DNA from: Stentor roeselii
Lineage: Eukaryota > Ciliophora > Heterotrichea > Heterotrichida > Stentoridae
Assembly (NCBI GenBank): GCA_006503475.1
Contig: RSEH01000217.1
Location: forward strand, 1 to 64,000
DNA: 64,000 nt
Reading direction: 5' to 3'
Shown here: piece by piece, positions 3,046 to 56,911 of the stretch
How positions within the stretch are numbered: the first letter of the stretch is position 1
Layout: each line of letters opens with the position of its first letter
Position numbers and translations under genes: made by a program
The notes under the pieces: model-generated
What the model was told of the DNA's origin: nothing
What the model saw: only the letters and a program-made list of their open reading frames with translations
Databases searched by the model: none

Positions 3046-3904
3046 TTAATGCCTAATTTGAATTAAAACTAATCCTGTAAAATCATAAAAAGTCAATTCT
3101 CTGAGTTCCTTCCACTTTTCGAAACAATCGCTAACATGATTTTCATAATCACAGCATCTGAATCCCAGTTTTTCTATCATGGTCGAAATATTGTTTCCAA
3201 AGAACTTTTCCAAAAAATGCATAAAGCTTTCTGCCCTAATCATTTTATTTTCAAATAGACTTCTGTAAAAACTATTATTTTTGTTATTTTTTTCAATTTT
3301 CGGAGGTAATTCTTTAAGTCTATCCTGGTTTGTAATTGTGTGCTCGTCAAATATATCTGCAATAACCTCTAAAGGGTCATCTGATGAAAATTTGAAGGCA
3401 TTTTTTCCTTTTTTCTTTTGAGATATGAGAATATTTATAGATTTTAAGTATATTCTTATTAGTTTCAACTTGAAATAAGCAGGCTTAGGATATGACCGAG
3501 GGCATGAGCTAGATAATTTTCTTCTATTTTTTTAACTTTATTATCAGGATTATCCTTAAATTTCTTAAGAATATTACTTTTTTTGAGCCTCTGCATTTCT
3601 TCATAGTTATTTTGGTTTGATTTTATATCATTACTAGAGAAATCGACGTCCATAGTTGTCGATTCTTTTGAAAGTTTCGTTGAATGTGCCCTTTGCTTGA
3701 ATGGCTCAAGTAATTTTCGAAAGAAAATTCATTGATAAGACTTTCGATTGACTCGCAGTGATGTTGCATTCTTCCAAAAAAACCCTTGACTTGATTTACC
3801 AAATTTAGGAGTTTTGGTTTTATACTGTTTCCTTCATTAGAATAATCATTCAATTCAACTTTGTTTCCTTGATCACAATTATCTATAACTTTTTCTTTAA
3901 ACAT
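3046..3904 (-). pseudogene. Frame-disrupted copy of the CC-H-C small protein family
   Basis: Three overlapping reverse-strand frames (3904-3623, 3653-3465, 3468-3046) together give one product similar to the intact proteins at 5837-6715 and 14969-15832. Shared parts are an N-terminal helix with VKGFFGRMQ, a middle block PKPAYFKLKLIRIYLK and a C-terminal block GFRCCDYENHVSDCFEKWKE. Two one-base shifts are needed: one near 3709 and one in an A-run near 3525, just before the PKPAYFKLK block. Both lie near homopolymer runs, so they may be assembly errors rather than decay. No function is known for the family. It sits in a cluster where these genes alternate with giant Cys-rich genes. Confidence 0.6.
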
Positions 3905-5836: not shown

Positions 5837-6715
5837 CTAATCATTTATTTTATCTAATCCTGTTAAATCTCTAAAAATAAAATTCCTTAATTCAATCCAC
5901 TTTTTCTTACATTCTTCATCATGTTTCTCCTCAAAACAGCAACCAAATCCCAATCTTTTAATAAGTTGACTTATTTCGCCACAAAAATATTTTTCAATAA
6001 ACAATTCGAAATTTTTTATCAAAACATCATTTTTAGCGAAAATACTTCTGAACAAGCCATTGTTCTTATTAGCTCCTTTGAGTTTCTTTCTAATATCTGG
6101 TAATATTTGAAGATTATTCAAAGTATGTTCATCAAAGCCATAAGATAAAAAATTATCAGGGTCTTGGATAGATTCTGGAAAAATTAAAGATATTTTTTTG
6201 TTTTTCATAAAATTTCTAATTTCTTTTCCATATAATCTTAATATTTTTAACTTGACATAAGCAGGTTTAGGTGAAGTTCTGATTTTTGGATTTTTTAGGA
6301 TTCTTCTCTTGACCTTTATAAGTATGGTGTGATCATCAATGAACTTCTGAAAGATACTTGTTTTGTTCATCGAGTTAGTCTTTTCGATGCTTGTTTCTAT
6401 ATTTGTAGATAATTGGCTGTAATTTGAATTATTATTTACTGGCTCAATATTCATTGAAATATACTCAATATTGGGAGTGTTTTGATATATTTGGTCGTTT
6501 GCAGGCTCTATCGGTTTTTCTGAACTAAAGTTTTCAGATTTTTTTAAAAAATTTTGCATCTTCAAGAAAATATTCTTGCAATTCGAAACAAATCTAGTGA
6601 AAGTTAATTTTAGACCTTTAGAACTGTTTTCAGCAGGACTATTAACCACCAGACCTTCTCTGTCTGAGGTGTCTATATTCTTATTAATCATTTTATTTAA
6701 ATATGGAATAGACAT
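5837..6715 (-). CDS. Uncharacterised CC-H-C family protein, intact copy
   Basis: A 292-residue product with no family I recognise. The N-terminal 130 residues are polar and variable, with a helix around residue 45 (NIFLKMQNFLKK) matched in the paralogues. A basic stretch VKRRILKNPK precedes the conserved block SPKPAYVKLKILRLYGKEI, then a region with DEHTLNN, and finally the C-terminal signature RLGFGCCFEEKHDEECKKKW followed by ELRNFIFRDLTGL. The CC-x5-H-x4-C spacing suggests a metal site, but that is inference. No signal peptide or membrane helix is seen, so it is probably soluble. It is one of three copies (3046-3904, 14969-15832) in this cluster. Confidence 0.75.
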   Translation of the reverse strand: MSIPYLNKMINKNIDTSDREGLVVNSPAENSSKGLKLTFTRFVSNCKNIFLKMQNFLKKSENFSSEKPIEPANDQIYQNTPNIEYISMNIEPVNNNSNYSQLSTNIETSIEKTNSMNKTSIFQKFIDDHTILIKVKRRILKNPKIRTSPKPAYVKLKILRLYGKEIRNFMKNKKISLIFPESIQDPDNFLSYGFDEHTLNNLQILPDIRKKLKGANKNNGLFRSIFAKNDVLIKNFELFIEKYFCGEISQLIKRLGFGCCFEEKHDEECKKKWIELRNFIFRDLTGLDKIND

Positions 6716-7606
6716 GTTCTCTAATCTTTTTCAAAAATGAAGATTTAGTTTGTTGATATTGAATGAATTTCGCTTTTATTAGATAATCATTTGATCTATT
6801 TTTGGTTAATTTGTTTGATATTAAAAGTTTTAATGAAAGTATTGAATGAGTTTTACTGAATGATTTAATGATTAAATTCAAGAATGAAATTGATTAGAGT
6901 ATTTGACTTTCTTAAATGGTTTGAAATCTTTTTTATTAGGATTGAATTTGGACTTAGATTTAAATTTATTCAGCCTATGGGATTTTAGAAGGATCTTAAT
7001 TAATCCAATGATTTAAGCAGCAATCACTTGAAAAATTTATTTTATATTTATTGATTATCTAATAGTGAATGAAAATCACTTTAATTTTGAACCTTATTTT
7101 ATTCCTGCAAATTAATAAATCTACTTGATTTAAAAAAAAATGAATTCTTTTGTTAAGACTATTACCTTTTCTACAGCTATTAGTCGAAAAATGAATAATC
7201 TTTGTGATTATATTAAATTTGGCTTTTCAAACTAAGAGAAACCAAAAAATTTATACTAAATTATAAATAACTACCTAATAGACAAAGTATTTTGCCTAAA
7301 TCAAAATAAAAATCAGTCTATTTCAATCAAAAATTATCATTCTGGATTCCGACTAAAAAATTTAATTGATGTTCTGAATCCTGAATGATCCTATCCTTCT
7401 CATTGAATCATCTCTATTAAATTTGATTAAAAATTATTAAAATTATTTAAGAAAACAATTTAAAATCAAATCATTCCTTTATGAACTAGATTCAACTACT
7501 CTAAGTATAAGCATTTTCTTACACTTACCTAATCCTATAAAAAACTGAATTAAATTTAATTAAAAACTGATAATTTTAGCTACAGAGGTTTATCTATCAT
7601 TTATTT
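6716..7606. other. AT-rich intergenic region, no gene seen
   Basis: About 890 bp with frequent stops in all frames, between the small family gene and the 3' end of the giant Cys-rich gene. A 62-codon reverse frame at 6881-6693 overlaps the start of the neighbour and has no coding character. Nothing else can be supported. Confidence 0.55.
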
Positions 7607-10600
7607 TTAAGACTTTTTTCCTGATCTTTGTTCACAAGTGACAGTTGTTTCCTTGATATGTAATGCAAAAATCTTAGCTTTTTTCTTTTCATCAAGAATA
7701 GCTTTCACTTTATCCCTCACTTTTTTCACAGTATTTCTGACACAAAAAATAATATTCAAGACCCATGCGATAAAAATCAAATAGATGCAAGCATCAGCGC
7801 TTCTTTCTGTCATTCCATCAGCACTAATGCAGCAATAACAAATGACTGAATAATAAGCCAGAATGATTATTTCTTTAAAAAAATGGTAAATATTCAAAAA
7901 GACGTCCTTGAAGCACTTCATTACAAGCACATAAGAAATGACCTGAATATTAAATACCAGAAGAACCATGATCACTGAAGTTATCATTTGAAAAAAGCCA
8001 TTTGTTGAAGCAACACAAACAATCACAATCAGAATTCTTCTTAAAAAATAGATCAAATAAAAAAGCCAGAATGAAAAATTGTCTTCTTTGAACTCGATAA
8101 AAAAGATTCCAAACATTTTATCGAAAGTTTGTTTTTCATCTTCATTTATAATTCGACTTCTTTTGTGAATAAGCTTCAAGAAAATGAAAAGTAAAATTAC
8201 TTGAATGGTCTAAATACTGAATACAATAATAAGAACGCAGATAGTTAAATCAATTATTTGAACGTAATTTTCAACTTGATTAAAAATAATTCCGACTCTG
8301 ACACAGGTTAAAAACTCTAAAAATGATTGCATCCAGAACCTTAAAAACACTGTAAACTTGAATAGTGAAAATAAAGGCGATATTTTTTGCTTGATCTTTT
8401 CTATTTTCATCAAAAGAGCAAAGAATAGGAACAAAATTGATGAAACTGCAAGTGATTGCAAGTAAGGCTCAGTGTTTAATAAAAACAAGTTGCTTTTATA
8501 CCCGAATGACTTGTGAGCCGAGTTTAAACTCATTCCCAAGTAAGGCTGATAAAAATATTTAACGATCTTCGGAGCACTTTTTTGGATTCTGATTCCAAGT
8601 AAAAACTCTCTGAGGTACGGGTGTAGCGGAATATCAAAGAAATAAACACAGTACAAAAGTTCAGCTGTGTTAAGAAAGTCCACAAAAGACGATGCGTCAT
8701 AGTTGATAATACTTAGTCCAAGCGAAATAGAAGCACCAGCAACTGCTGCTTTAGTACTAAGTTCATTCATCTTCTCAGCCCGTTTATTAATCCTATTGTT
8801 TTTCTCCTGGTCTTTCGTTATTTTGATGTCCTTCTGAAGCCTCTGTGTACCCAACAGTGCCTTATCTTCCGACCAGATATTTTCAGTGAAAACAACAGTA
8901 AGATTAGCACCTTCCTTCAAAGTAACCTTATAAACAACTATTTTAAATCTGTCCATTTCTAATCTTTTCACTTCAAAATCGATTTTTTTCTCATCTAAAT
9001 ACAACTGGATTTGAGTTGATTTCAAGTCAGTCTGAAGAGGCTCGTCGAACCACAAAACAGGTTCAAAGTCTTGGCTGACTGTTAGATTAGCGTAAAAGAT
9101 CCTTTGTTTGCAAGATATGTCTAAATAGTAACCTTTTGAGCAAGTACATGAGTGGTTTGGCATAAGCTCACTTTTCGCATCACAATCGAGACAGTAAGAG
9201 CTGTTAAAACATTTAGTACATGGAACTGGACAGGGTTGGCAAGTCTTTGATGCAGGTTCGAAAAAACAGGATGTTTCGCAAGGAATGCATCGACCGTTGA
9301 TGGCTTCGTATGGAGGAAAACATTCGTAGCAAGATTCAGAGTCATAGTCAAAACAGTAGAGACAGTTTAAATCTTTGCATAGATTACAAGTTTGATTATT
9401 TCTGCAGGCTTCACAAGAAGATAAGCAACTTTCACAAGACATTGAAAAATCAGAAAAAAATTGTTTTTTTTCACATTGGTCGATTTCATCACCAGCTACA
9501 AGACATGGTTGGCAAGCAGAGCAGTCTTTTTTAGAAAGAAACAACAAAGGACTCAGTTCCGATCTAAAAAGCTGAAAGTTAAAAAGAAACCCTTGATAAG
9601 CTTTGCTAAAATTAAACCCAGAGCCAAGAAAAAACAATCCATCGCTAGAGTCAATAAAAGGCTCTGTTAAAACTGAAAACTGTTCAATAAACTCTTTATT
9701 TTTCCACACATTTACTTGTCTCCCTAATTTAAACTGCTCTGAAATCCAGATATGTTGCCAAGTGTCCTGTTCTATTATAGCAGATGTGCTTAAACTCGTA
9801 TTTTTCAAGTTAATTTCCAAAAGATTCTGAATGAGTTTGACTGTCAGAAGTTCTTGAGTGACGTTTTCAGTCCTTGCTAACAAAACTGATGAGATAGTCT
9901 CTGGCCGAATCCAAAAAGAGAGACTATACTCGATGTTGAATAGTTTAAACCCAGTTTCATTAATTTCCAAAAAACTTCCACCTGAAAAGTAAACTCCTCT
10001 GTCATAAACAATCACAGGGTCAGTCGCTTCAGACTTTTGAACCTCAAAGGTTTTTTTATAAGCTGAAATATTTGAACAAGAGTCAAAAAAACTCTCCCCA
10101 ACGTCTCTAAACAGAAAACTAAGACTAAGGTCTTCAGAGCCCTTCTTCAAACAAACTCCTGAACTTGGAACTAATCCAAGAGGGCAGATGTCGACACAGT
10201 TATTTAAAAGAAGCAGATCATTACAAGTATTGCAGTCATAGGATGTCGCACCAGAGCAAGTCAAGCAAGAACTGTGACACTCTTCACATAAAGGTGGAAA
10301 AGTATGAGAATCGATACAAGAAGTACATGAATCAGTTTGGTTGCAAGTTTCGCAGATACTCAAACAAGGATCACATATTTCGGTGACTTGATTCAAGTAA
10401 AACCCGCTGATGCACTGACATTTACTCTTGACCAGCTCTGAATTCGAGTCACATGAAAGACAGTTCAAGTTTGAATCACAAGATAAGCATAAAGCAGGGC
10501 AAGAAGAACAAACGCCGAGGCCTGTCAATGCGAATCCGATTTCACAGGAGGCGCAGTCATTAGAAGTAGTGCATGAAAGACAGTTAGATGAGCAAGGCAT

Positions 10601-14968: not shown

Positions 14969-15832
14969 TTAAATTTCTCTATTCGTGATTTTTTTGAAAG
15001 TCCAATCCCTAAGTTCTCTCCATTTCAAGAAACACTCATGTGCATGTACTTGACTACCACAACATTTGAACCCAAATCTCTTCATAAGTTTATTAATGTC
15101 ATTTCTAAAGAACTCTCTGATAAAAAGTCTGAAATTTTCAATTCGAATTTGATTATCTTTAAACAAAAGCTGATACCATTCATTAGTTTTACTTCCATCT
15201 TTCATCTCTTTAGGAATTTCCAAGAATTCCTCCTGATGTTCAAGTAAATGATCAGCAAATCGATAATCATACAAAAAACCAATCCCTGAAGACTCAGTAG
15301 TCTGAACACGAGTTTTTTTCTTAGACCTGAGTATAAATTTGATGTTTTTCGCATAAAGTCTCATGAATTTAAGTTTAAAATAAGCTGGCTTCGGTGTTCG
15401 TCTTGGCTCAGAACTTTGAGAATTTCTTCTTTTTATTTTAATAAGTTTTTCTGAGTCATCAGTAAACCTGAGAAGAGCTCCACCTTTTCTGACTTTAGGA
15501 AGAAGTGAAGTTGTTTCGATGTCCATGTCGAAGGAATCATCTTTTGGCATGTTTTTTGGTCTTACTAGTTCGATTATCGTGATTTGGTCTTTTGGTTCTT
15601 CTGGAATTTGCTCTTTTAGTATTGCTTCGAAAGGACGGAGGGAAGGAGGGTTGATGGACTTTAGTTTCGTTTCGATTGACTCGAATTTGTCTTGCATTTT
15701 AGTGAAAAATGATTTCATTGAATGGACTATGTCGATTAGACCTTTTTGGATTTCTTGGTCTTGGGTTAGGGAGTTTTGATTTAATGATGATTGCTTGGGC
15801 TTTGAAGTGTCTATATTTTTAAGTCTTTCCAT
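14969..15832 (-). CDS. Uncharacterised CC-H-C family protein, third copy
   Basis: A 287-residue product, paralogous to 5837-6715 and 3046-3904. It starts MERLKNIDTSKPKQSS and contains the N-terminal helix MKSFFTKMQDKFESIETKL, a basic segment IKIKRRNSQSSEPR, the conserved TPKPAYFKLKFMRLYAKNI, and the C-terminal signature RFGFKCCGSQVHAHECFLKW with ELRDWTF. Serine/basic patches in the middle could be phosphorylation sites. No known domain is recognised. The three copies are conserved mainly in the C-terminal 140 residues, which suggests that this half carries the function. Confidence 0.78.
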   Translation of the reverse strand: MERLKNIDTSKPKQSSLNQNSLTQDQEIQKGLIDIVHSMKSFFTKMQDKFESIETKLKSINPPSLRPFEAILKEQIPEEPKDQITIIELVRPKNMPKDDSFDMDIETTSLLPKVRKGGALLRFTDDSEKLIKIKRRNSQSSEPRRTPKPAYFKLKFMRLYAKNIKFILRSKKKTRVQTTESSGIGFLYDYRFADHLLEHQEEFLEIPKEMKDGSKTNEWYQLLFKDNQIRIENFRLFIREFFRNDINKLMKRFGFKCCGSQVHAHECFLKWRELRDWTFKKITNREI

Positions 15833-16567
15833 TTTGTTTATAGAAAATGGATGGATTGATAGGATTTAGATTTTTTAATTTTGAAGATTTTTTGGGGGTA
15901 TGAAAGTGTTGATAGAAGTTCTTTGTTTGTGAATTATTTATGATTAAATCTATCCTGAGCCTGTTAAATTATAAAAGTTTCCTTATGAGATCTATTGTGA
16001 GTTTAAATATTCTATAAATTTTTGTAGCTCTTTTAAATATAGATCCATCATATAATTACTAGTTCTATTAAGATTTATATTCTAGTTCTTTCTGTAGTAT
16101 GTAAAATTACTGAATAGACTTGAAACTTAATCAACTCAAAGATAGCATTAATAAGTATAGTACTTTAGATCTTGTTAGATATATCGTCAAAGATTATTGA
16201 ATTTTTTTAATTGTAATTAGTCTACATCTAAACCATAAACTAAATTTCCTAAAACATTAGTCCTATTGATATAAGAAAGTCAGAAGACACTCAAATTCAA
16301 ACAAACTCAAACTAATTGAGTGAATTTAATTATAGACATCAAGTTGTTTAGTATATCGTGGTTTACATGATCGTAATAATATTTGTCCTCTTAACTATAA
16401 TTTAATCATAGAAACTAAACTTTTTAACCTAAAGAACTTCTACTAATCTCCAAAACATTAAACACCTAAATCTAAAAAACATTCAATCCAAACAAATCAA
16501 TCCCCAACCAAAAATCTCTAAACCACCTCTTAACCCAAACCCTTCTAGAAGTCCAACCTTCCCATAA
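15833..16567. other. AT-rich intergenic region between divergent genes
   Basis: About 735 bp between two divergently transcribed genes. Very AT-rich at the left, rich in C and A (AAACC, CCAA) in the last 100 bp before the start at 16568. No gene or RNA fold seen. Confidence 0.5.
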
Positions 16568-18469
16568 ATGTCCTGCGCATATCAAAACTGCAAACAAAAA
16601 CCAATCAAAACCTGCAAAGACTGTGTAAAAATACATTCATTTTGCATATCTCACGCAATGACCCACATCAGAGAAACCGGTCACAAAATGGGAGAACTGA
16701 CATCCGCGATTTCCAATCGAGACGAAATCAAGTCACTAATAGAAAAAATCATAAAAACAACTCGAGACATAATCCTCGAAATAAGCAGCTCTTCAGACGA
16801 ATGCATAAAAATCCTGAAACAAATGAACCTAGGTCCAAACTGTTCAAAACTCGAAATAGATAATTCGAGATTTAGAGAAATTTCAGATAATACCAAAAAT
16901 ATTTTCTTTGAAATGATCACCAATGCTCAAAATTTAGCTGAAGAATTTAAATTAGAAGAAGCTAAAAACAGTCGATTTTTCACAAGTATTGGGCAGACGA
17001 TTTCAAGAGAAACAATAAGTAAAAGTAAATAGTAAGAGGGAAATCAAGCAACCCTGTAGCTCTATCTTTAGATTTGAATCAATTGAAATCGTGGATAGAC
17101 AACTCTTTTAAATGCAACATTGATGTGAGCAAGATCACGACTGCTACTTTAACGAAAGACAATAGATATTTGATGGTTTGTAATTTTCGAGAAGACTGTA
17201 AAGAAGAGAAGGCAAATTATATGAAGCTGATGGTTTTTTATAGGAAGTTGGTTTGTTTAAAAAGGTTGGGATTATTAGATTGTGAGAGAAAAATAGGTTT
17301 GAGATATGAAGGGGGTTTGATTTACTCAGGAAGTAAAGAAGTTCAAGGTAGATTTGATAAGATTGTTAAGGAGAAACAGGTAGAACTCATGAAGGTTAAT
17401 TTAAAAAGATAGTAAAAAAAAGAAGCCCGTTTTTTTAAAAAGGTGAAAAAAATGAAGATCGTGAAGAAAATTCAGGAAGTTTGATATTTTTAGTTTGTGA
17501 AATTTTCTCAGGTTTTTTTTATTCAGTTTGTGAAATAAATCAAGGTAAGTCTAAAAAAGTTTGTGAAAAATATTGAAGGTTATCAATGTTTAGCTTGTTT
17601 TCAACATTCAGCTGAAAGTGAATTCAATAAAGGTAAAGAAGATGCAAGAAGGTTGAAATAAAAAGAATGTTAGATTCAGGTAGGTCTCTGCTAATCAGGC
17701 TGTAGTTTTTATGAAGATGGTTAGAAATAAAAGGTTTGGAGCATTTAGGTGAAGGAGAAAAAGGTAAAAATGATTAAGCTAGTGGGAAATACTCAGGTTA
17801 AAGACATCTAGGTATGGGTTAAGCAGTGAGTATTGATAATTCAGGTATACTTTAAGAAGGAGATAGTAAATTCGAGAAAGGTAATCAAGATTAAGGAAGC
17901 AAGACCTATTTAGGTCTTTTTTATGCAGGTAAATTTGAAAAGAATGTGAAAATTATTAGTTTGTGAATCAAAATAAGGTACGTTCAACAAAGGGGGTAAA
18001 GTTAAAAAGATAGTATCACTAAATCAGACAGTGAATTTAAAAAGGTACCTGAAAATCAGATCGTGAATTAAAATCAGGTATCTTCAAATCAGCATGTAAA
18101 ATCTTTGAAGTTGCTTATGAAAAACTCAGATCTTTAGAGAGTAGATAAAATTAGACGGTCTTTTTTATGAAGCTAGTAACTTCGAGATAGATCGTTGGCT
18201 TTAAACAGAAAGTAACTTCAAAAAGGTATTTTTTATTAGAATGTTTGATTTGTTTAGTCTGTATCTTCTATCAAGTTGGTTTAATTTATCAAGGTAAAGA
18301 TTACAAGAATGTATTTTACAGAAAGCTCGTATTGTTTAAAAAGAATGTATTGTTAAAAAGTCAGTAAATTTTATCAGTGCATATCGTCGACCTCACTGAT
18401 ATGAAGTACTTGGGATATGTCTCACAATTCAATGATCGAGCAGGCGAATATCTTAAGCTTTTAAATTAG
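16568..18469 (+). CDS. B-box-like zinc-binding protein whose 3' half is a tiling of tiny introns
   Basis: Predicted product 284 residues. Exon 1 (16568-17018) encodes a Cys/His cluster MSCAYQNC...CKDC...CISHAMTH, like a minimal B-box, then a coiled coil. A 14-nt intron (17019-17032, GTAAAAGTAAATAG) switches frame into exon 2 (17033-17179), ending DNRYLMV. From 17180 to 18377 the sequence is tiled by 70 GT/GC...AG units of 14-16 nt that leave 43 micro-exons (165 nt). The last exon (18378-18469) encodes HIVDLTDMKYLGYVSQFNDR and ends at TAG. Joining all pieces gives no internal stop, and all introns are phase 1. Exon lengths are 451+147+165+92 = 855 nt. The function of the protein is not recognised. 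Apparent frames such as 17074-17412 read through intron units. That the cell really splices this is inference and needs cDNA. Confidence 0.75.
17180..18377 (+). repeat. Array of 70 tiny intron-like units (49 of 15 nt, 19 of 14 nt, 2 of 16 nt)
   Basis: Every base is assigned either to a unit beginning GT (68) or GC (2) and ending AG, or to a micro-exon. Examples: 17461-17475 GTGAAGAAAATTCAG, then GAA, then 17479-17493 GTTTGATATTTTTAG, then TTT, then 17497-17511 GTGAAATTTTCTCAG abutting 17512-17526 GTTTTTTTTATTCAG. Units total 1033 nt and micro-exons 165 nt (39 of 3 nt, three of 6 nt at 17227, 17612 and 17860, one of 30 nt at 18111-18140). There are 26 direct AG|GT or AG|GC contacts. The units are not copies of one another; they share only ends, length and an A-rich stretch before the final AG. 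The 16-nt units are 17563-17578 and 17633-17648. The spacing makes much of the region look like a degenerate 33-bp tandem repeat (15+15+3). Confidence 0.85.
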
Positions 18470-18654
18470 ATTAGGATTTAAATACTTGCTCATTCAAGCA
18501 TCTATTATTTTTTTCTTCTAGTTTATTGAGAAGCTAAAATCATTCATTTTATCATAATAGGTTTATTCTTGGTTAAATAATTTCTGAGTAATTGAAAATT
18601 GAGAAAAAATTTGATCTAAATACGACACTACTTAAGATAAAAATAAAACCCCAA

Positions 18655-21600
18655 TTACCTAAATTTCCTAAGATTCTCAATAGAGGCAATAATTCTATTT
18701 TCAGATTCCATAATTTTCAAATCAATCGTTTCCAAGATATCATTTTTCAGATTTTTCATCTCTTTTTCGATATCTTTTTTATATTCTTGCTGACTCTCCT
18801 GAATTTTTTGCATAATCTGAGTTTCAACCACATTCAAGTGTTTTTTCATGTCATTTTTGATATCTGCAACATCATCTACTAACTCAAAAAACTCATTTTT
18901 CGTGATTTTTCCCTGGCCCTTCTTTTTATTACCTTCATTTAAAATCCCAATCAAGTACTTCCCTGAATCATTTTTATTTCTTCTCCAAATAAACATACTC
19001 TCTACTTCAAACAGAGTTTGAGCCATTTCCATCAAATCGATTTCAGAAGCGTTTACTTGGAAACGGTCAAAAGAATCTCCTAGAATAGATATTAATAGAT
19101 TTAGCATAACTATAACATTGATCACTGTAGCAATGAAGAATGAGATGTAGTTCATGTCAAATGTGCTTTCATGAGATGCTGATCCAAGGTTAAGGTCATA
19201 GGGATACATCCAGATCTCACTAATACTAATATCTTTATAAATCGAGCAAATAATACCAAAGCTCAAAGTAGAGTAAAAGAAAATCAAAATAAACGGTAAA
19301 ATATCATGAATCGAGTTCAAAATCAACCTAACATAATACCTGGTTATCTGAAAACAACGAAAACCTGTCAACCCTCTCATCAAAATAAGAGCTACCAACG
19401 CGTAAGTCAATCCCAAGTTCCCAGACTCAGAAAATTGATAAGACAACCAAACAATACAAACAATGATCTGCGTAAAGTCAATAGAATTCCAACAAAACAC
19501 CATAGAAAGAGTGTTTTTAATTAAAAGGCTGAAACTTATCACTTTGCCCAAAGAAAAGCACACAACAAAGAAAATTTCCTGAAAAATGATGAAAAGTTTC
19601 AATGAAAAAGAATCTTCCAAATTAAACCCAATCAAAGATGATGAGTAAAAAGTGAAGAAAAAGATAATTGATGAATAACTTCCCATTGTATGTACAAATT
19701 CTGACTTTTTCTGTAAAAGACCGCAAAGGGCTAAAAGGGTTGACAAGGAATTGATTGTGTAAAATGCTGGAGAACTAGAGGTGTAGAAATTAATTGAAAA
19801 AATAATGACTAGGAAAAATTCTATAAATAGTTTCGTGAATTTTTTTGAAGTTAGTGATATGAAGATTTGAATAATGAAGGAATTTCCGGCTAGGAATTGA
19901 GTTAAAATTAATATTCCTAAATTTTTTTTGGATAGGAAAGAATAACAATATGTAAAGCGAGTTGAATTGATTTTCCTATTAGATAAGCCACATTCCTCAT
20001 AGTATCAGATCTGAAAAAACACAGAACTATCATGAGCCAAAGACTTCCCATTCCAATCATCAAATAATAGACATATTCCCACTTAGCCCAGAAAGCAGGG
20101 AAAAAAAAGCAGATAAAAATTCCAAAAAAAATCCAATTAAAAACAATCTTCACCTTTTTCCCATTATCAGGAGCAAAGCAAACTGAAATACAAAAATAAA
20201 TAACACAACTATAAGGTTGAAAATCATCCAAAAAAATCAAAGCTAAAGTCAAAACCCTTATTCCCAAACAAGCATGTTTTTTATCAACATTCCCAAAATA
20301 CTGAAACAAGTTCATCGAAGTAAACTGCAAAATTTCAAACAAGGCTAAAATTCCATTAACAAAAGTAAAAGCACTCAAAATAAAAATGTTAAAACGATCC
20401 ACAAAGACCAACAAAACCACTAAAGGAATATTAAGCCACATCAAGGTACTTTGAAAAAATACCAAAAGCCAATTTTCATCCCATTTGTACTGTAAATACG
20501 ATTTTATTACTTTCGTTCGAAATAAAGCCAAATTTTCAGTTTCCGCCAAGGCTTGAATGACTTTCAAACTTTTCTCACTTCCTGTTAAAGACGGTAACTT
20601 GACTTGTGAATTCAAAATCTGTGATTTGATGAAATTCTCTGAATCAAGCATGTTGTCAAATGAAGTGTAGGCCTTGCTTATTACTTCACTTTCAATGCAG
20701 GAAAGCATTTTAAACTGAGGGACTTTTTCGATGTTTACTTGAAGGGACTTTTCTTGAGTGTTTATTAGTCTTTCGAGAAGGTCTATTACGAGACTTGAGG
20801 AGAAAGATATGTATTCGGGTAAATCGTTTTGGATTATTTCGAACATGTATGAATATTCTGGGTTACTTAGGTGATTTATTATTTCATTCAAAAATAATGT
20901 CGCGCATTGAATTGACTTGATGCGAAGTGCGAAAACTAGAATTGAGACCTGTTCTTGTTGATAGTTACATAAACTATGATAATATCTATGAACAATAAGT
21001 TCAAACCCCTTTCGTTCAAAAAAGTAAGAAACCGCTTCTACCAGATCTTCACTAATCAAATGATAAACAAGGTACTTCTGCTCAACATTATATTCTTTAT
21101 AAATAATTTCATGCAGTAAGCAATGTCCAAGTTCATTTTTAATTTCTAAATCAAAAGGCACTTTCGAGCTATTCAAAAATTTTCCATAATCTTTTCCAAG
21201 TTTCCTCTCAATTTTCTCTTCCGAAAGCTTTAAAATTAATTTGCTAGTTGTTTTTTCCTCATCCTTTCTATTTTCCTCTCCCCAAACCGCATAAATCAAA
21301 GGAGTCAATCCAAGTAAATTCTTCCTAACAACAATATCCTCCGGTCTAACCTTCGAAATATCTTCAATTCCTTCATTTTCACTGAAAACTTTCTCTTTCT
21401 CCTGATCACAAAAGTCCAGAATCTTTTGAGTCTCTCCTCGAAAAGCCAATAAATGAAACTTGTTACTTTCAAGTTCATTTTTTAAAAAGTCTTCAGCGAT
21501 TTCTTTGCGTTTTTTCCATTCTGTTGTTTTTTCCCAGAAGTCTTTGAAGATAGGTTGATTTTTAAGGGTTTCTTGAAGTTTTTTTATTGGTTTTTTTTTC

Positions 21601-21971: not shown

Positions 21972-22817
21972 TTAACTGAAAATACTTCTCAATGAGCTAA
22001 AAACGTACTTGGGTGAATAATCAAATTTGTTAATCTCGTTGAAACTAGTAACTCCAGTTAAGACTAAAGCGGTGTCAATCCCTGAACTGATTCCAAAAAG
22101 CACATCAGACTCCATGCTGTCTCCGATCATCACAGTCCTGTTGACATCGATTTCATTCTCTTCTTGTATCAGAGAAAATAAGTCAATCATCGGCTTTCCT
22201 AAGATTCTAGCTTGGACTCCAGTTGCAGTTTCCATAAACTTTATCCAGCATCCTGAAGCAGGAAAAATCAGTTTTTCAGATATCGAACATCTGTCTCTAT
22301 GAAGTCCGATCAAAGAAGCACCGTTCTGAACACATGCGGAAAGGTAAAGAGATGAAAAATAATTAAATCCTTCATCGTAGGCGACTATTGCAACTTCGAT
22401 GTTCTCTTCTATTTCGAAATTTCGAAGGTCTTCAAAGGTATTTATTGAAAAATCGAAATCAGGAGGGTAAATTACTTGGTATCCTGAATCTTGTATCAGT
22501 CGACGAAGACTTCTGGGCCCTATTATTGAAACTTTTTGACAACAAGGATGATGCTTTTTTAAGTACTTTATTAGAAGATATCCTGCACTGTATAATTTTG
22601 CCTTTGGAACTTGTAGTGATTCTGCTGAGAAGCGAGCTTCTAGGTTTTCAAAAGTCATATTCGCATTATTCGTCACAAAGAAAATATCTTTATCATGTGC
22701 TTCCAAGATCTTTAAAGTCTCCACACTTCCATCAACAAAACCTTTCTGATTCCACAAAACTCCATCAAGATCAATACAAAAATGATCATAATCCCTCAAA
22801 AAGTCAATCTTATCCAT
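21972..22817 (-). CDS. HAD-family phosphatase, phosphoglycolate/4-nitrophenyl phosphatase type, copy 1
   Basis: 281 residues. Motif I is FCIDLDGVLW (residues 12-21) with the nucleophile and acid/base aspartates; motif II FVTNNA follows at about 47-52, and the C-terminal motif GDSMESDVLFG binds magnesium. The cap region lies between. Size and motifs fit the eukaryotic PGP/PDXP group, which dephosphorylates small metabolites such as 2-phosphoglycolate or pyridoxal phosphate in the cytosol. Copy 2 lies 207 bp upstream in the same orientation (23025-23876), so they arose by tandem duplication. Exact substrate cannot be told from sequence. Confidence 0.88.
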   Translation of the reverse strand: MDKIDFLRDYDHFCIDLDGVLWNQKGFVDGSVETLKILEAHDKDIFFVTNNANMTFENLEARFSAESLQVPKAKLYSAGYLLIKYLKKHHPCCQKVSIIGPRSLRRLIQDSGYQVIYPPDFDFSINTFEDLRNFEIEENIEVAIVAYDEGFNYFSSLYLSACVQNGASLIGLHRDRCSISEKLIFPASGCWIKFMETATGVQARILGKPMIDLFSLIQEENEIDVNRTVMIGDSMESDVLFGISSGIDTALVLTGVTSFNEINKFDYSPKYVFSSLRSIFS

Positions 22818-23024
22818 AATAATAAACTAAATCTAATAAAAACCAACCCATAAATCACCTACTTAAAATTTCATGTATAAATCAATTACTCGAAAACAAA
22901 AACCAAATCAACTAGTCTCTCTAGACAACATTTCCAAATAAATCACTTCTTCACATCTTCACTCCTCAAACCATTAAATCCCTTCAATCCTAAAAATTCC
23001 AAAAAAATCCTAATTTACTTACTA

Positions 23025-23876
23025 CTACCCAACAACCTTCGCCAAGTTCTCTAAAACATAATTCGGTCTAAATTCAAACCCGTGCAGATTTTCCTCTTTA
23101 GTAACTCCAGAAAGTACCAAACAAGTATCAATCCCGGAGTTAATCCCAAACAAAACATCCGATTCCATGCTATCCCCAATCATCAAAGTCCTTTCGGGGT
23201 CTAAATTCCTCTCTTCTCTAATAATATCAAACAAGAACCTCAAAGGTTTTCCAATAAAATTCGCTTTTTTATTCGAAGCAGTTTCAATGAACGAGATCGA
23301 GCATCCAGAAGCCGGAATCATTGAAGTTCCAAAGATAAAAAACCTGTCTTTATTCAACCCGATGAGACTTGCTCCATTCTGAATGCAAGCCGAGCAGTAA
23401 AGAGCAGAATAATAATCAAAGTTCACATCATAAGCGACGACCACAGCGTCTACATTTGCCTCGACTTCGATTTTTGTGAGGCTTTTTAAGTCTGAAATTG
23501 GATTTTCAAGCTCTGAAGGATAGACTACCTGATACCCGGCGTCTTTCAGGTACTTTCGAAGTCCTGGCATTCCCATTACTACGATTTTTTGGCAGGATGG
23601 GTGATTTATTTGAAGGTATTTCAAAATCGCGTAACCTGTTGTGTAGAGGTTCTCTGTTGATGATGTTATCGACATTGAAGAAAAACGCTGTTGAAGCTCT
23701 TCTCGAGTCAATGCTGCGTTGTTTGTCACGAAATAGACTTGCTTGTTTTGGGACTTTAAATATGCCACTGCCTCGGAACTACCTTCTATTGCGTTGTGAC
23801 CGTTCCACATCACACCGTCAAGGTCGATGAGAAAATTGTCGTATTTTTCTAGGAGGTTTATTTGAGAAGAGGACAT
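23025..23876 (-). CDS. HAD-family phosphatase, phosphoglycolate/4-nitrophenyl phosphatase type, copy 2
   Basis: 283 residues with FLIDLDGVMWNG near the N terminus, FVTNNAALTREEL, and GDSMESDVLFGINSGIDT near the C terminus, so all catalytic and magnesium-binding residues of the HAD fold are present. It is clearly paralogous to 21972-22817, conserved over the whole length but well diverged, so the duplication is not recent. Probably a soluble small-metabolite phosphatase of the PGP/PDXP group. Confidence 0.88.
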   Translation of the reverse strand: MSSSQINLLEKYDNFLIDLDGVMWNGHNAIEGSSEAVAYLKSQNKQVYFVTNNAALTREELQQRFSSMSITSSTENLYTTGYAILKYLQINHPSCQKIVVMGMPGLRKYLKDAGYQVVYPSELENPISDLKSLTKIEVEANVDAVVVAYDVNFDYYSALYCSACIQNGASLIGLNKDRFFIFGTSMIPASGCSISFIETASNKKANFIGKPLRFLFDIIREERNLDPERTLMIGDSMESDVLFGINSGIDTCLVLSGVTKEENLHGFEFRPNYVLENLAKVVG

Positions 23877-32040: not shown

Positions 32041-32415
32041 ATGCAAAATAATGATTTTATGTATCAGACTGACTTTGAAAGTGGAAAAGATATTAAAAGA
32101 GTTGAACTTAGTCCGAAAAGAGTTGATATTTGCTTGAAATATGAAAAAAATCATAGTAATTCGGTTAGGGTTCCTAAGATGATCACGCATAAGAGGAAAA
32201 TTTCTGATGGGGAATTTAGGAAAAAGGAGAAACACTTGCCGACTATTTTTAGAAATCCTGTTATTCCGGTTACTTCGGTTTCTCAGAGCCATAGGCAGAA
32301 TATTATAAGGAAAAGACTTCAGAAACACTGTCATTCACTTTACCAACCTACGCTTTACCCTCGTAATTTGAAATACTCGTTAATACTTGACAATTTTTAT
32401 CTAAGTTCTACCTAA
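32041..32415 (+). CDS. Small basic protein, unrecognised
   Basis: 124 residues, rich in Lys, Arg, Ser and Asn, with no recognisable domain (MQNNDFMYQTDFESGKDIKR at the start; KRLQKHCHSLYQPTLYP near the end). Support for it is positional: it starts with ATG 19 bp from the divergent PPTC7-like gene and its TAA overlaps the stop of the convergent transposase-like gene, and its codon use resembles neighbours. A chance frame cannot be excluded. Confidence 0.55.
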   Translation: MQNNDFMYQTDFESGKDIKRVELSPKRVDICLKYEKNHSNSVRVPKMITHKRKISDGEFRKKEKHLPTIFRNPVIPVTSVSQSHRQNIIRKRLQKHCHSLYQPTLYPRNLKYSLILDNFYLSST

Positions 32416-33569
32416 TTAACCTCATTTTCCCCTTTTCTCTTCTGATACTCATTCAAAATTCCAGAAAGTTCATTCAAAACCGTAGCAATTTCATTTTTCT
32501 TACAATCCCTCTTAAACTGTCTCATCCAGCAAAAAGTATGCAAATAATGCTGAAAGTTGACAAACCTTCGATGTTTCTTAATCCAATACTTGGCCCAGCA
32601 CCAAGAAATTTCAATATTTTGGGTATGAATTTCTCTACTTTTCGGATTAACAAAAAACCTAGAATGATCAACAGTATAATGTGGAAATCCAAGTTCAGCA
32701 AGATGATTATAAGCATTCCACTGATCAGAAATAACAGTAGTTCCCGTTTCACATATTTTCTGAATAATCGGCAATAAAACCGCAGCAGTTCTTTTGCTGA
32801 CAAGTTCCATATAAACAAGTTTTCTTTCTCTTTCATAAAGTCCAAATACCCATTTATCAGTCCCCACTTGACATGGTTTATCTTTCGAGCTTCTAAAGCA
32901 GGACTCATCAATTTCGACGACTCCTCGAAAGCGAGGAAGATTTTTCACAAAATGCTCTGAAACGATTTCTCTTAATTTTTCAGTGATTGGCTTGATTACC
33001 TTGCGTTCCACGTTGATCATGGTGAGGATGTTTGTATTGGGTTGGTTCATTGCCCATAAAAAAAGGGTTAAAACGATTTTTCCAACTGTTATGTCAGGAT
33101 GGTCCCAAAGAGTTCCTTCGGTCACTGGACAACGAAATCCGCATTCACAGTAGAAAAAAAAATGCTTTAAAAATGGTTTTAATTCACATTTTTTTCCACA
33201 TTTGCAGAAGTGAACTGAACTTAAAAAACGCTTTTGGAATAAAAAACTCATTGCGAGTTCTGGGTCGTAGACTATGTTTAAAATGTTTAGAGGAAGGTTT
33301 AGGTTCTCGATGTAGGTTAGAAGACCTGAGTCACGGATGTGAAGCTTTGGAAGGATTGGCGATTTCATGTAAAGTTTTTGCTTTATTAGAGTAAGGGATT
33401 TTAGTAACTCGCTTTTCTTGTGGTGCAGGTCCTCATTCAGTTCTTTGATGACCTTGTATTGTTGCCGTAATTTAGAGTTTTCAATAGATAAATACATAGA
33501 AGATGACAACAAGTCGACACAAGTTTCACAAGAAAGTATCCGAGATTCATGATCTTTACAACTGTACAT
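32412..33569 (-). CDS. ISXO2/Merlin (IS1595-type) transposase-like protein, apparently intact
   Basis: 385 residues. An N-terminal coiled segment and Cys-rich region (CKCGKKC...CECGFRCP) forms the zinc ribbon usual for this family; the DDE nuclease shows VVEIDESCF (first Asp), TVISDQWNAYNHL (second Asp) and HTQNIEISWCWAKYW (Glu), so the triad is complete. I see no terminal inverted repeats: the 3' end overlaps the stop of the neighbour gene by 4 nt, leaving no room for one, and the 5' side carries a motif shared with the H4 gene. This suggests a domesticated gene rather than a live element. Related proteins in ciliates have been linked to genome rearrangement families, but a role here is not shown. 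Confidence 0.85.
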   Translation of the reverse strand: MYSCKDHESRILSCETCVDLLSSSMYLSIENSKLRQQYKVIKELNEDLHHKKSELLKSLTLIKQKLYMKSPILPKLHIRDSGLLTYIENLNLPLNILNIVYDPELAMSFLFQKRFLSSVHFCKCGKKCELKPFLKHFFFYCECGFRCPVTEGTLWDHPDITVGKIVLTLFLWAMNQPNTNILTMINVERKVIKPITEKLREIVSEHFVKNLPRFRGVVEIDESCFRSSKDKPCQVGTDKWVFGLYERERKLVYMELVSKRTAAVLLPIIQKICETGTTVISDQWNAYNHLAELGFPHYTVDHSRFFVNPKSREIHTQNIEISWCWAKYWIKKHRRFVNFQHYLHTFCWMRQFKRDCKKNEIATVLNELSGILNEYQKRKGENEVN

Positions 33570-36793: not shown

Positions 36794-36974
36794 TATTTTT
36801 TATAGCTTTTGCAACATGAGAGAGATTATTTAAAACAGATGAAAAGTGGTCGTTACTCAAATTTTTCTTAAAGAAAGTCATTATTTCCTAGAAATCACTG
36901 AAAGTATTAAGAAAAGAGTCCAAGTTATCAAATCTTGATATTTTATGAAGAATGAGTTAACATCATCTTTTGAT
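36794..36974. other. Short AT-rich spacer
   Basis: Non-coding spacer between the HMG-box gene and the tandem repeat; nothing recognised. Confidence 0.5.
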
Positions 36975-37368
36975 CTAACACCCAGTTGATTATTCCATCT
37001 TTTGATTAAACAGCCAGTTATTCATCTCATCTTAAGATTTAACACCCAATAAACCATCTCTTCTTGAGACGTAACACCCTAACACCCTAGCATCTTTTCA
37101 TCTTACACCCAGTTTATTATTCCATCTTTTGATTAAACAGCCAATTATTCATCTCATCTTAAGATTTAACACCCAATAAACCATCTCTTCTTGAGACGTA
37201 ACACCCTAACACCCTAGCATCTTTTCATCTTACACCCAGTTTATTATTCCATCTTTTGATTAAACAGCCAGTTATTCATCTCATCTTAAGATTTAACACC
37301 CAATAAACCATCTCTTCTTGAGACGTAACACCCTAACACCCTAGCATCTTTTCATCTAACACCCAATT
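36975..37368. repeat. 127-bp tandem repeat containing telomere-like words
   Basis: About 3.1 copies of a 127-bp unit. The word GTAACACCCTAACACCCTAG lies at 37071, 37198 and 37325, exactly 127 bp apart. Each contains the 8-bp period ACACCCTA twice, which is a permutation of CCCTAACA, the telomere repeat reported for heterotrich ciliates. Other parts of the unit repeat a diverged form (AACACCCA, TACACCCAG). Copies 2 and 3 are almost identical. Confidence 0.9.
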
Positions 37369-37555
37369 ATCATTTCCTCTTTGTTCTAGCACCCAGTTAA
37401 TGAATCTTTACTAACACCCAGTTAATTTTCTTTCATCTAACACCCAGACAATCATTTCTCATCTACACCCAGACAATCATCTCTTCTTTCATCTAACACC
37501 CTGTTAATCATCTTATCTTTTGATCTAACACCCTTACACCCAGTTAATCATGGTG
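37369..37555. repeat. Degenerate AACACCCAG-rich repeats before a large gene
   Basis: At least eight imperfect copies of a 20-35-bp phrase such as CTAACACCCAGTTAATCATC. They continue the 127-bp array in diverged form and stop 15 bp before the ATG at 37571, so they occupy the promoter position of that gene. Confidence 0.75.
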
Positions 37556-37570
37556 TAAAATAATCGTTAA

Positions 37571-40500
37571 ATGGGAGGCTGCACAGTTAAATCAACTCAT
37601 ACTCATACTCATCTGGAAGCTGAGGTGAAGGTGACTATTCCAACATGTCACTACTTCTGCAGGAAAAAGAAAAACCTCTTTCATATCTCGACTGACAAGG
37701 TTGAGAAATACAGCTTTAAAGGGAAACTCAAGTGTCACTCCGACTCTGGAACAGGACTCACGAAAGACGGAGGAATCCTCCTGGCTGGAGGAACCGACTC
37801 TTCGGGATCACTGACGACGAGAGTTTTTGTCATCACCCCTGAAAAGTTCTCTGGACACGAATTGACCCCGATACCCAAACCTGTCAAGGAAGGCCATTTG
37901 TTTGAGTACAACGGCTACTATTACTTTATTGGAGGAACTTGTGAGGCTGAGTCTGTCGATGCTCTTAGTGGTGTTGAAGGCTCGCCAGTCTTCCGTTACA
38001 GCAAGAAAGAGAAAGGATGGGAAGTTTTCAGCCACAATAAAAATCCGAAGGCTGGTATAGAAAAAGCATTGAACCGTAACATCACAGACAAAGAAGAACA
38101 CGAAGAAATCCTATTAGACTCATCCCGGTTTTCCCTAAAAGACCTAATCTCTCCAGGAGTCTTTTACTTCAACGACAAAGCCTACCTAGTAGGAGGTCAA
38201 ATCTTAGTAGAAAACCAATTCAAGCCAACAAACAAGATCCACTCAATCAACTTAAAAAGCGAATCATTCGAATTCACAGAAGAGTCTTTAGAGCTTCCAG
38301 TGAAACTAATCAATCCAGTCTGCACATCAGGAAGTTCACACGCGATAGTCACAGGAGGTTTACTAGAGAATCACGGGCACAACACTGAAATCTTTGTAAT
38401 AAACTTCAACTCAGGTACCGTTAAAAAGTTTGAATCAAAGTTAGACTCTGAACTAAAAGAGAACTATCCTCCTACTTACACTGAAAAAGAAGTGATTTTC
38501 TTTGGATTCCCAAAACTTTGGGTAAAACCTAAAGATCAAGATAAAGCTTTTAGTTTTACTTTTAAGAAAAAAGAACAGGGGACTAAAGGAGCTGGGTATA
38601 AGACTCAAGATGTTAAAGTTGAAAAACATGGTTCTGGAAAAGCACCTGTTAAGGTTAATATTGATTTGAGTTTAAGGAATAGTTCTGAGAAACCGAAGAG
38701 GAAAGGACATGGAAAGCATAAAAAATCGAAGAGTTCTAGTTCTAGCTCTGGAAAGGGCGTTAAGGGGAAGATCACACTTCCGGTTGTCAATGCTGAGGCT
38801 AAGGTTAAAACGCATTCTAAGAAAAAGAAGTCTTCTTCATCTGGATATGATATTAAAACTAAAAATATCACTGCGAATGTGGATGGAGGTGTTAATGTTA
38901 AAATCAAAAAAGGTTCGTCTAGCTCGTCAAGTTCTGGAAAAGGGAAGGGGAAAGGGAAGGGGAAAGTCAAGGTCGAAGGCCCAAAAATAAAAATTGGAGG
39001 CAAAGGTTCGTCTTCATCCAGTTCATCAAAAAATAAAGTCAAAGGCAAGGCAAACATAAAAGTCCCAGGTGCTAAAGTCGATCTTCCGAATTTGGACGTT
39101 AAAGTAAAAGGCTCAGGCAAAAAGTCCCGTAGCTCAAGTTCATCAAAAAAAGTCAAAGGCAAGGCAAACATCAAAGTTGAAGTTCCGAAGGTAAAAGTTG
39201 AAGTTCCCACGGCCACTCTTGATGCAAAAGTGAAAATAGGGGGAAAAAAATCGAGTTCTTCTTCAAGTTCGTCTTCAGGAAAGAAAAAGATGAAGGCGAA
39301 GGTTGATCTACCAAAAGCAAATATAAATGTCGGAATAGGAAAAGGAAAAGGAAAGAAATCTTCAAGTAGCTCTTCTAAAAATGCCAAGGCTAAAGTTGTC
39401 CCACCCAAAATTGGAGCGAAATTTGAGCCTCCTAAAGCTGAAGTTAAATTAAACATTGGAGGGAAAAAGAAGTCGAAATCATCTTCGAGTAGTTCTTCTG
39501 GAAAAGCCAAAGTAAAGATGAATGCTCCTAAGATTCAGGCTAATATTGGACCTCCTAAGGGAAAAATTGATGCGAAAATAAACCTTCCGGCAAAGAAAAA
39601 GTCAGGCTCGTCGTCTTCAAGTAGCTCATCTGGAAAAGGTAAAGTGAAGTTTGGTGTACCTAAAATAGAAGCAAAAATCGATACTGCTAAACCAAAGGCT
39701 GAAGTAAAAATAGAACCTGTTAATGAGAAAGCTCGTGTTAACTTCACAATAAAAAATAAAAAGAAATCTGGCTCATCATCAAGCAGTTCTTCTTCAAACA
39801 AAGGTAAAATTAAAGTACCTAATGCAAAGATTACTGCGAATATTGAACCTCAGAAAATTCCAGCGAAATTTGAACCTCCAAAAGTCAATGCAAAAATAAA
39901 GGTTGGTGGAAAAGGTTCAAGTTCGAGCAGTAGTTCATCGTCAGGGAAGAAGAATCTCAAGATTTCAGGTCCTAAGGTTGATGTCAAATTGGATGCTCCT
40001 AAGGCTAAGATAGAAACTCCCAAACTAGATGCAAAGTTAAAGATTGGAGGCAAGAAAAAATCTAGCTCATCTTCAAGCAGTAGTTCATCTAAAAAAGCTA
40101 AAATGGCTCCTCCAAAAATAACAGCAAAAATTGAACAACCTAAAGCTCAAGTAAAAGTAGAACCTCCGAAAATCGAAGCGAAGGTAAACATTGGAGGAGC
40201 TAAGAAAAAATCGAGCTCGTCTTCAAGCAGTAGCTCTTCTAAGAAAGGGAAAATCGCTCCTCCTAAAATTCAAGCAAAAGTTGAGCCACCAAAGGGAAAA
40301 ATCGAAGTTCCAAAAGCTGATTTGAAATTAAATATCGGAGGAGGCAAGAAAAAATCAAGCTCGTCTTCAAGCAGCTCATCTAGCAAAGGTAAAGCAAAAA
40401 TTGCTCCGCCTAAATTAGGTGTTAAAGTTGAGCCACCTAAAGGAAAAATCGAAACTCCTTCAGCTAAAGCAGATATCAAATTAAATATAGGAGGAGGAAA

Positions 40501-55375: not shown

Positions 55376-56911
55376 ATGAAGTTTTCAAGTCTAGCAGGTC
55401 AATATCGTCTCTCAAAACAATCCGAACAGTACAATTATTTCCTTTCACTATCTCCAAGCCTATCATCAATTTTAAGTCACTCAGGAACTCTTCAAGAGAT
55501 CCAAAACTCAAATCCTAATCTTGAATCAGCGTAACTCAAAAATAGGATCACATCAGATTATCTGTCATGCTTGCTTTCCCTGATACTCCAGTCGCCAGAT
55601 GATTACGCAAGTCCAGAGGAGGCTTTTAAGTTTCCATTCATCGCCTCCCAGTTCTTTTCCAGTAAGTTTTCAAAACTATCAGAAAAACTCCTCCAAGACC
55701 AAAAAAATTTCTCTTTTCTTTTAAATTTCTTAGAAACCCCAGAACCTTTACCTGTTCTATCCGGTTACTTCAGCAAGACTTGCGAAGTTTTATTAGAAAA
55801 TTTCCCAGAAACTTTCCTCATCCAATTTATAAAAAGCAAAGGGCACTTAAAACTCATTCATCATCTAAAAAACTCATCACTTTCTGACTTTCTCTCCAAG
55901 ATTTTATTAAAAATTTCCAGATTTTCAGAGTTGGAAGAACATTTCCAAGAAACTTTGAATGAAATTTCATTAAAACTTGAAGAAGCTGATGAAGTCTGTT
56001 GTTTTAATATTATTGGAATATTAAAAAAACTTGGAAATTTTAATAACTTTGAAATTTCTGGGTTTTGGGTGGGACTGATGAGGAAAAATCTTGCCTTTGA
56101 AAAGATTTGTGTGGCTTTTAAGAGGTTTTTGATGGGAAAAAACGATTTTTTCAAGAGGGTTTTGGAAGGGATTAGAAGTGGAAAAAAGATTTTGAGACCT
56201 GCTTGTTTGAGGATATTTTTGGATGTTTTGATGATTTTGGAGAAGGAAGAAGAAATGGAATGGGTTTTGAATGGGTTTTGTAAAGAGTTTCAGTCTTTTG
56301 TGCAGGTGGTGAAAGATTTCAGCATGGGGCAGGAAGTGTTAACGACTTTAGAGATTTTTAAATGTGTTTTAAACACTAATAAAGAAGAAATTGCGCTGAA
56401 AATCGCTGAAGCTGGGGTATTTGAATGGATTTTAATGAGTTTGGAAAAATTTCCATTTTGCACATTTTTACACAATTTATTTTCAAGTATTTTTTCAAGT
56501 GTTTTCAATTCAAACATGCAGAAAGTGAAAGATTTCACGTTTAAAGACCTAAATATCCTGGATTTCATTATAAAAAACACTGAAAACCCTCTCATCCGAT
56601 GGAAAAAGTGTGAAACACGAAAAGGTTTCGTTCCGCACTTGTTTTTCCTAGCGAACCTTCTAGAGTCTCTAAAAAAAACTGACTTTTTCCTTCATCAGAC
56701 GTTGAAATCTAACCAAAACTGGAAAAAATTTACTAGATCGACTCTTCAAACTCAAAATTGCATCGAAAGCAGGTCCTTAGGCGGAAATTTCTTTGATAAT
56801 TTCTTCGAAAAAAGCGATGATGAAGACCCTTCGGCGATTCTATCAAGTCAGGAGTTCAACGATGTGGAGTTTTGGCGAGTTCCGTTATCAGGTCAATTAG
56901 AAGAAATATAA
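55376..56911 (+). CDS. SAPS-domain protein (PP6 regulatory subunit type)
   Basis: 506 residues with one 15-nt intron at 55531-55545 (GTAACTCAAAAATAG), which contains the stop that would end the first exon; removal joins ...NLESA to ITSDYLSCLLSLILQSPDDY. The signature of the SAPS family follows: EEAFKFPFIASQFFSSKFSK, then NFLETPEPLPVLSGYFSKTC, then FLIQFIKSKGHLKLIHHL. SAPS proteins bind PP6/Sit4-type phosphatase catalytic subunits. The C terminus is short compared with animal PPP6R proteins. I chose the first in-frame ATG (55376); the frame is open 37 codons further upstream, so an additional 5' exon is possible. Confidence 0.75.
55531..55545 (+). other. 15-nt intron in the SAPS gene
   Basis: GTAACTCAAAAATAG interrupts a codon in phase 2 and holds the only in-frame stop between the two halves of the gene. 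Together with 8210-8224 it defines the ordinary intron form here: GTA...TAG, 15 nt. Confidence 0.85.

Follow-up and report, generated by a model that had tools for sequence, protein, structure and literature searches.

In the heterotrich ciliates Stentor coeruleus (PMC9505925) and Blepharisma (PMC9942806), introns are tiny: in the parts of these reports used here they run GT...AG, are A+T-rich and mainly 15 nt long, and have the branch A at position 10. The same part of the S. coeruleus report gives 8806 annotated introns, 92.8% of them 15 nt and the rest 16 nt, with no 14-nt intron in the annotation as described there (PMC9505925). The branch A is placed at position 10 in nearly all 15-nt introns and at position 11 in 16-nt introns, with exceptions reported, and the GUA start is described as stringently conserved. 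According to this account, 18% of the genes contain introns, mostly one, and for genes with more than eight introns the authors are unsure that all are spliced (PMC9505925). The array described below shares the common form and differs from these accounts in that 70 introns are predicted together, 14-nt units are frequent, the exons between them are codon-sized or of zero length, and the third base of the donor is looser. The preliminary description knew of no account of an intron in nearly every codon, and our search agrees: no comparable array was found in the titles and abstracts of open-licence full-text literature, a scope outside which bioRxiv and supplements fall.

The introns of schistosome micro-exon genes are of ordinary length. 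The runs of symmetric micro-exons in those genes resemble the array, where 43/43 are multiples of 3; in the account drawn on here they measure up to 36 bp, whereas those of the array are mostly one codon (PMC8293314). Single-nucleotide and 3-nt exons of Arabidopsis APC11 show that minute exons can be spliced, with one minute exon per gene in the cases described there and 39 exons of 3 nt here (PMC4674806). In recursive splicing with zero-nucleotide exons, as outlined for Drosophila, an AG is followed by a GT and removal of one segment exposes the next donor; those ratchet points sit within long introns, whereas the array has 26 such junctions between complete introns of 14–16 nt (PMC8605326). 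Fungal stwintrons (spliceosomal twin introns) resemble the predicted array in being composite intervening sequences that are spliced out in successive reactions. In a stwintron, a splice signal of one intron is split by another intron, whereas the introns of the array lie side by side, each complete (PMC8469720, PMC9024468).

The gene considered here lies in a window of Stentor roeselii DNA, by which we mean the whole 64-kb stretch that was analysed. Its predicted parts are listed in Table 1, where A10 denotes an A at position 10 counted from the donor. Intron 1 has three overlapping candidates of 14–17 nt, and either alternative to the one listed, of 14 or 17 nt, would connect the two reading frames as well. 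With the 14-nt first intron, the spliced coding sequence is 855 nt and encodes 284 residues.

Table 1. Predicted parts of the array gene and related features in the window
Feature	Position	Strand	Description
Exon 1	16568..17018	+	Start MSCAYQNCKQKPIKTCKDC...; open reading frame
Intron 1 (predicted)	17019..17032	+	GTAAAAGTAAATAG (14 nt, with A10); excision fuses exons 1 and 2 in frame
Exon 2	17033..17179	+	End ...DNRYLMV plus base 1 of the next codon
Tiny-intron array (predicted)	17180..18377	+	70 introns, 43 micro-exons, 26 directly abutting intron–intron junctions
TAG closing the unspliced frame	17410..17412	+	77 codons into the array
Longer array exon	18111..18140	+	The sole one, 30 nt; mostly encodes AYEKLRSLE
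Last exon	18378..18469	+	Encodes (M)HIVDLTDMKYLGYVSQFNDRAGEYLKLLN plus stop
Probable ordinary tiny intron	55531..55545	+	GTAACTCAAAAATAG, A10
Probable ordinary tiny intron	8210..8224	-	GTATTCAGTATTTAG, A10
Peptide YSDVDWGNYTHR...			Expected from the spliced form, at odds with read-through of the array

We parsed the array by dynamic programming, seeking the greatest coverage by units that start with GT or GC, end with AG and measure 14–16 nt; the parse is blind to frame, spacer length and branch point. This unconstrained parse returns exactly the numbers first reported for the locus: 70 units (68 GT, 2 GC), separated by 43 spacers that add up to 165 nt. The units cover 86% of the 1198 nt (17180–18377). 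Nineteen units measure 14 nt, 49 measure 15 nt and two measure 16 nt, so that 51/70 are 15 or 16 nt long; the spacers comprise 39 of 3 nt, three of 6 nt and one of 30 nt. The acceptor AG of one unit abuts the donor of the next at 26 junctions, and the 44 insertion points hold one (23 points), two (17), three (3) or four (1) units. The same parse applied to 300 dinucleotide-preserving shuffles gives a mean of 23.6 units and a maximum of 31, and chance tiling by a permissive parser is rejected. When only GT starts are allowed, 68 units are obtained versus 20.4 ± 2.9 (maximum 28) in 300 dinucleotide shuffles. Counting GT...AG pairs by distance, independently of any parse, gives 47 pairs at 15 nt versus 9.3 expected and 19 at 14 nt versus 9.5. 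Among the top 12 listed per strand of the non-array 1198-nt windows taken in 300-nt steps, the best contain 18 units on the plus strand and 22 on the minus strand. In a greedy scan of both strands, no second chain of at least three GT-A10-AG units with gaps of at most 30 nt is found elsewhere in the 64 kb.

The preliminary description also stated that the stretch divides without remainder into units and micro-exons. This property is empty on its own, because spacers may take any length. Its informative part holds, in that each of the 43 spacers of non-zero length is a multiple of 3, against 33% on average and 70% at most in the shuffles. The limit of 14–16 nt is an input of the parse. When 13–17 nt is allowed, one 17-nt unit is added within the 30-nt exon, leaving spacers of 2 and 11 nt; when 11–21 nt is allowed, 11- and 12-nt units are also taken, some of them replacing 15-nt ones, and the spacers are not all multiples of 3. 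The 14–16-nt parse thus depends in part on the size class already known.

The branch A, to which the parse is blind, is found at position 10 in 63/70 units (42/49 of the 15-nt, 19/19 of the 14-nt and 2/2 of the 16-nt units) and is missing there in seven, while the parsed shuffles have A10 in 39% of units on average and 62.5% at most. Taking all 90 GTs of the array, in or out of the parse (the last 25 bases omitted), the frequency of A is 0.78 at position 10 and 0.32–0.45 at positions 3–9 and 11–12. Both 16-nt units have T at position 11 and A at position 10 (n = 2). The donor is GTA in 32/70 units, and the acceptors are AAG (40), CAG (17) and TAG (13); both ends are looser than in the published accounts. 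The array contains 61 GT-A10-AG candidates of 14–16 nt, all of which are units of the parse, leaving no decoys; simulated arrays with random interiors contain 2.5 ± 1.5 decoys (P = 0.08 for zero). Within the units, GT is depleted (12 versus 29 simulated, P = 0.002), though the simulation drew interior bases one at a time, so that part of the shortage may be ordinary dinucleotide bias; AG is not depleted (37 versus 39 simulated).

All 44 insertion points fall after base 1 of a codon (phase 1). Were the phases independent and random, the probability of 44/44 in one phase would be 3e-21, a figure to be qualified, since units that arose by duplication would not have independent phases. Removal of the units joins exon 2 to the last exon in frame through 56 codons without a stop, as first claimed and as reproduced here; 0.8% of 20,000 base shuffles are stop-free. 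Codon usage in the 56 joined codons is gene-like, with a score of 0.442, and the scores of the other two frames are 0.12 and −0.60. Windows of 56 codons from ORFs have a median of 0.28 and a 95th percentile of 0.54, placing 0.442 between the 75th and 95th percentiles, where the score was trained on 24 of the window's ORFs, 12,553 codons in all, and the comparison windows come from those same ORFs. None of 3000 stop-free shuffles scores as high as 0.442.

The three features of which the parse makes no use, namely the branch A, the phase and the codons, support splicing. Judging from them and from the lack of decoys, we strongly infer from the sequence that the reading as spliced tiny introns, one of those first proposed, is right: the array very likely consists of 70 spliceosomal introns of the heterotrich type within one protein-coding gene. 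Counting against this reading are the loose donors and acceptors, the 14-nt units, the seven units that lack A10, the placing of A at 10 and not 11 in the 16-nt units, the low number of units (21/70) that bring a stop when singly retained and the 77-codon unspliced frame described below. Only slightly less confidently, the 70 complete introns at 44 insertion points over 56 consecutive codons are likely to be spliced codon by codon with a fixed donor-to-branch ruler, essentially no exon and 26 zero-length-exon junctions, as a saturated array, uniform in phase, that selection has preserved over a long time. Each unit would be self-contained, with its donor GT, its branch A at base 10 and an AG ending 4–6 bases after it, and the spliceosome would recognise each unit through the fixed ruler from the donor, that is, by intron definition. 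With exons of 3 nt, exon definition is impossible. The units would be removed one by one (we infer both the removal and its order), and where two units abut (AG/GT), in-order, reverse or joint removal would lead to an identical product.

Since the phase is 1 throughout and the micro-exons are multiples of 3, skipping of a micro-exon would keep the frame. A retained 14- or 16-nt unit would shift it, and retention of a single unit brings in an in-frame stop for only 21/70 units. Such properties, together with the symmetry of every micro-exon, would suit an array that serves as a device, either producing protein variants by skipping of codon-sized exons, in the manner of schistosome micro-exon genes, or metering expression through about 70 splicing events. 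This special case of the spliced reading is unlikely in our view, since to skip a single 3-nt exon the spliceosome would have to take out about 33 nt as one intron, beyond the published length range. We consider it most likely, at about even odds, that the array is of no benefit and only leaves expression strongly dependent on splicing.

The frame of exon 2 might instead be read into the array without splicing, for 77 codons to the TAG at 17410, which would give a 276-residue protein and leave the remainder as an untranslated relic. The 77 open codons are unusual for that frame (P = 0.0042 among 5000 unit-resampled arrays), but this P value applies to one chosen frame, and over all frames the longest open stretch of the array reaches 76, near the 90th percentile (74) of the simulation. 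Read-through also leaves the branch A, the phase, the codon usage of the spacers and about 1 kb of units past the stop unexplained, and we regard it as improbable as the main account. For the C-terminal half of the read-through protein, Pfam gives nothing at E 10; the spliced form likewise has no match above the cut-off. Since the unspliced frame is open for 77 codons into the array, the 276-residue product (17180–17412 unspliced) may possibly coexist with the spliced form as an intron-retaining isoform.

Removal at the level of DNA or translation, which the preliminary description had left as an option, is less favoured than splicing because neither predicts a branch A. In the DNA version, the units would be internal eliminated sequences cut out during development of the somatic nucleus, and the window would be germline DNA. 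Ciliates are indeed described, in the portion of the Blepharisma report consulted, as excising short DNA segments from genes (PMC9942806). DNA excision, however, does not predict the ruler of donor, branch A and acceptor in the units, and probable ordinary introns of the same form occur in neighbouring genes, so that we consider this account very improbable.

The least probable account of all is a decayed or out-of-frame coding repeat of V-x-x-K-K pentapeptides (GTN NNN NNN AAR AAG) that mimics the pattern: short-period repeats do give up to 23 GT-A10-AG units per 400 nt, equal to the array by that measure, and intact GT and AG cannot be counted against the mimic as the parse requires both, but no frame is open through the array, the spacers remain multiples of 3 although the unit lengths mix 14, 15 and 16 nt, and the unit interiors are nearly unrelated while the mimics that were read are plain repeats. 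A scan of contig collections for a four-unit pattern returned two viral and 44 bacterial stretches (46, all scored). Eight of the 46 were read; none is an intron array, and these coding or low-complexity repeats were rejected as such, seven being open-frame repeats (four of them VAAKK-like) and one (L035) apparently non-coding. Short-period repeats in bacterial and viral contigs, those of the VAAKK type among them, copy the 15-nt GT...A10...AG pattern and are a trap for scans for intron arrays.

As for the origin of the spliced array, our guess leans somewhat towards stepwise growth by small tandem duplications of an intron or an intron plus a codon, as opposed to invasion of existing codons by introns. 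Duplication that supplies splice sites is a possible growth route, although the duplication signal of the array is weak. Duplicates would have been kept as silent or nearly silent after splicing and would then have diverged, leaving GT, A10, AG and the codons. The single phase and the spacing of 0, 3 or 6 nt favour duplication of an intron or an intron plus a codon. Tandem repeats in a simple register are rejected: no lag correlation is found between unit interiors (15 lags, lowest P = 0.07), the signal from TRF is weak (a score of 88 with P = 0.03, and P = 0.08 for the sum of scores), and self-identity over 40 nt peaks at 27, which is no excess over the median of 27.5 in permuted arrays. Near-identical unit pairs number 13 versus 2.7 by column shuffling; with neighbour dependence modelled, the comparison is 13 versus 6.1 (P = 0.03, identity at 8 of 9 positions), and for pairs similar at 7 of 9 positions P is 0.16. 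So faint a signal leaves two readings, old duplications or entry of the introns into a pre-existing coding sequence, and a duplication origin is poorly supported.

The predicted protein comprises, in order, a Cys/His-rich N-terminus, a coiled coil, the part from exon 2 and the array-encoded part. By eye, the N-terminus appears B-box-like and the coiled coil is probable; both would be encoded by exon 1. No Pfam family reaches its cut-off on the predicted protein. Below the cut-off, the best match to the spliced C-terminal half is PF21889 (E 0.014, 16.1 bits versus 27), which extends across the array, followed by PF07748 (E 0.062) and PF13341 (E 0.12); exon 1 matches DUF7583 (E 0.0028, 18.2 bits versus 27). 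A PDB homology search gave no match up to E 1, and a phage homology search gave none. In viral contigs, four stretches matched a peptide pattern and none was confirmed as a homologue. BLASTP of two parts of the predicted protein against each other detected no internal repeats, and Rfam detected no structured RNA in 16000–19000 up to E 1. A segment that runs from exon 2 into the first codons of the array can be aligned (tblastn E 1.0) with a kelch-like protein encoded in the window. Permutation gives P = 0.0044 for the hand-chosen segment and 0.026 for the first 360 residues of that protein; a further two kelch-like proteins yield 0.43 and 0.59. This alignment over the predicted splice junction, one of three and chosen post hoc, is a lead only and not evidence.

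Elsewhere in the window, the two ordinary 15-nt introns mentioned in the preliminary description are probably the two listed in Table 1. They belong to 11 candidates for ordinary introns, three of which (these two and the 14-nt intron 1) are judged clear; all three start with GTA, end with TAG and have A10. The other eight comprise the two alternatives to intron 1, five candidates without A10 and one with A10 (53791–53805, minus strand), which is antisense to a long ORF. The 21 long ORFs, called under the standard code, stop with TAA (13), TAG (6) or TGA (2), and no in-frame TGA is found in ORFs of up to 2001 aa, again as called under that code. In Blepharisma, UGA is stated to encode tryptophan in the portion of the report used (PMC9942806). 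No tRNA genes were found in the window. Judged by its codes and probable introns alone, the DNA would more likely come from Stentor than from Blepharisma.

Several coding features were observed on the way. The ORFs at 5837–6730 and 14969–15865, both on the minus strand, encode members of one protein family (31% identity over 280 aligned positions, E 5e-40), of which 3046–3531 (minus strand) is by eye probably a third; for the protein from 14969–15865, Pfam gives nothing up to E 0.001. At 32412–33569 (minus strand) lies an ORF for a protein with a DDE transposase domain of the ISXO2-like/IS1595 kind (Pfam E 3.8e-15). The 2001-residue ORF at 37571–43576 (plus strand) has a kelch-like N-terminus (Pfam below cut-off) and long repeats of the KAGLDVKAGGK type with poly-Ser blocks, and just upstream of it, at 36963–37533, repeats whose periods range from about 23 to 127 nt form a minisatellite-like array. 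Two neighbouring genes for HAD-type hydrolases, perhaps tandem duplicates, are found at 21972–22826 and 23025–23876 (minus strand).

Tiny introns are known, and the codon-spaced array, as read here, would be an extreme variant of this known intron class. The array gene, or similar genes, could be among the S. coeruleus genes with more than eight introns. Our results suggest that gene models would cut such a gene short if they allow only introns of 15–16 nt and exons of ordinary size. If the array is spliced as predicted, the spliceosome copes with single-codon exons or no exon at all, with 70 introns in 1.2 kb, and the array offers no alternative GT-A10-AG site of 14–16 nt. If RNA sequencing confirms this, the gene would be an extreme test of splicing precision. 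It would provide a natural substrate for studying the limits of intron definition, the splicing of adjoining 15-nt introns and intron multiplication, and relatives with and without the 56 codons would tell gain by duplication from invasion by introns.
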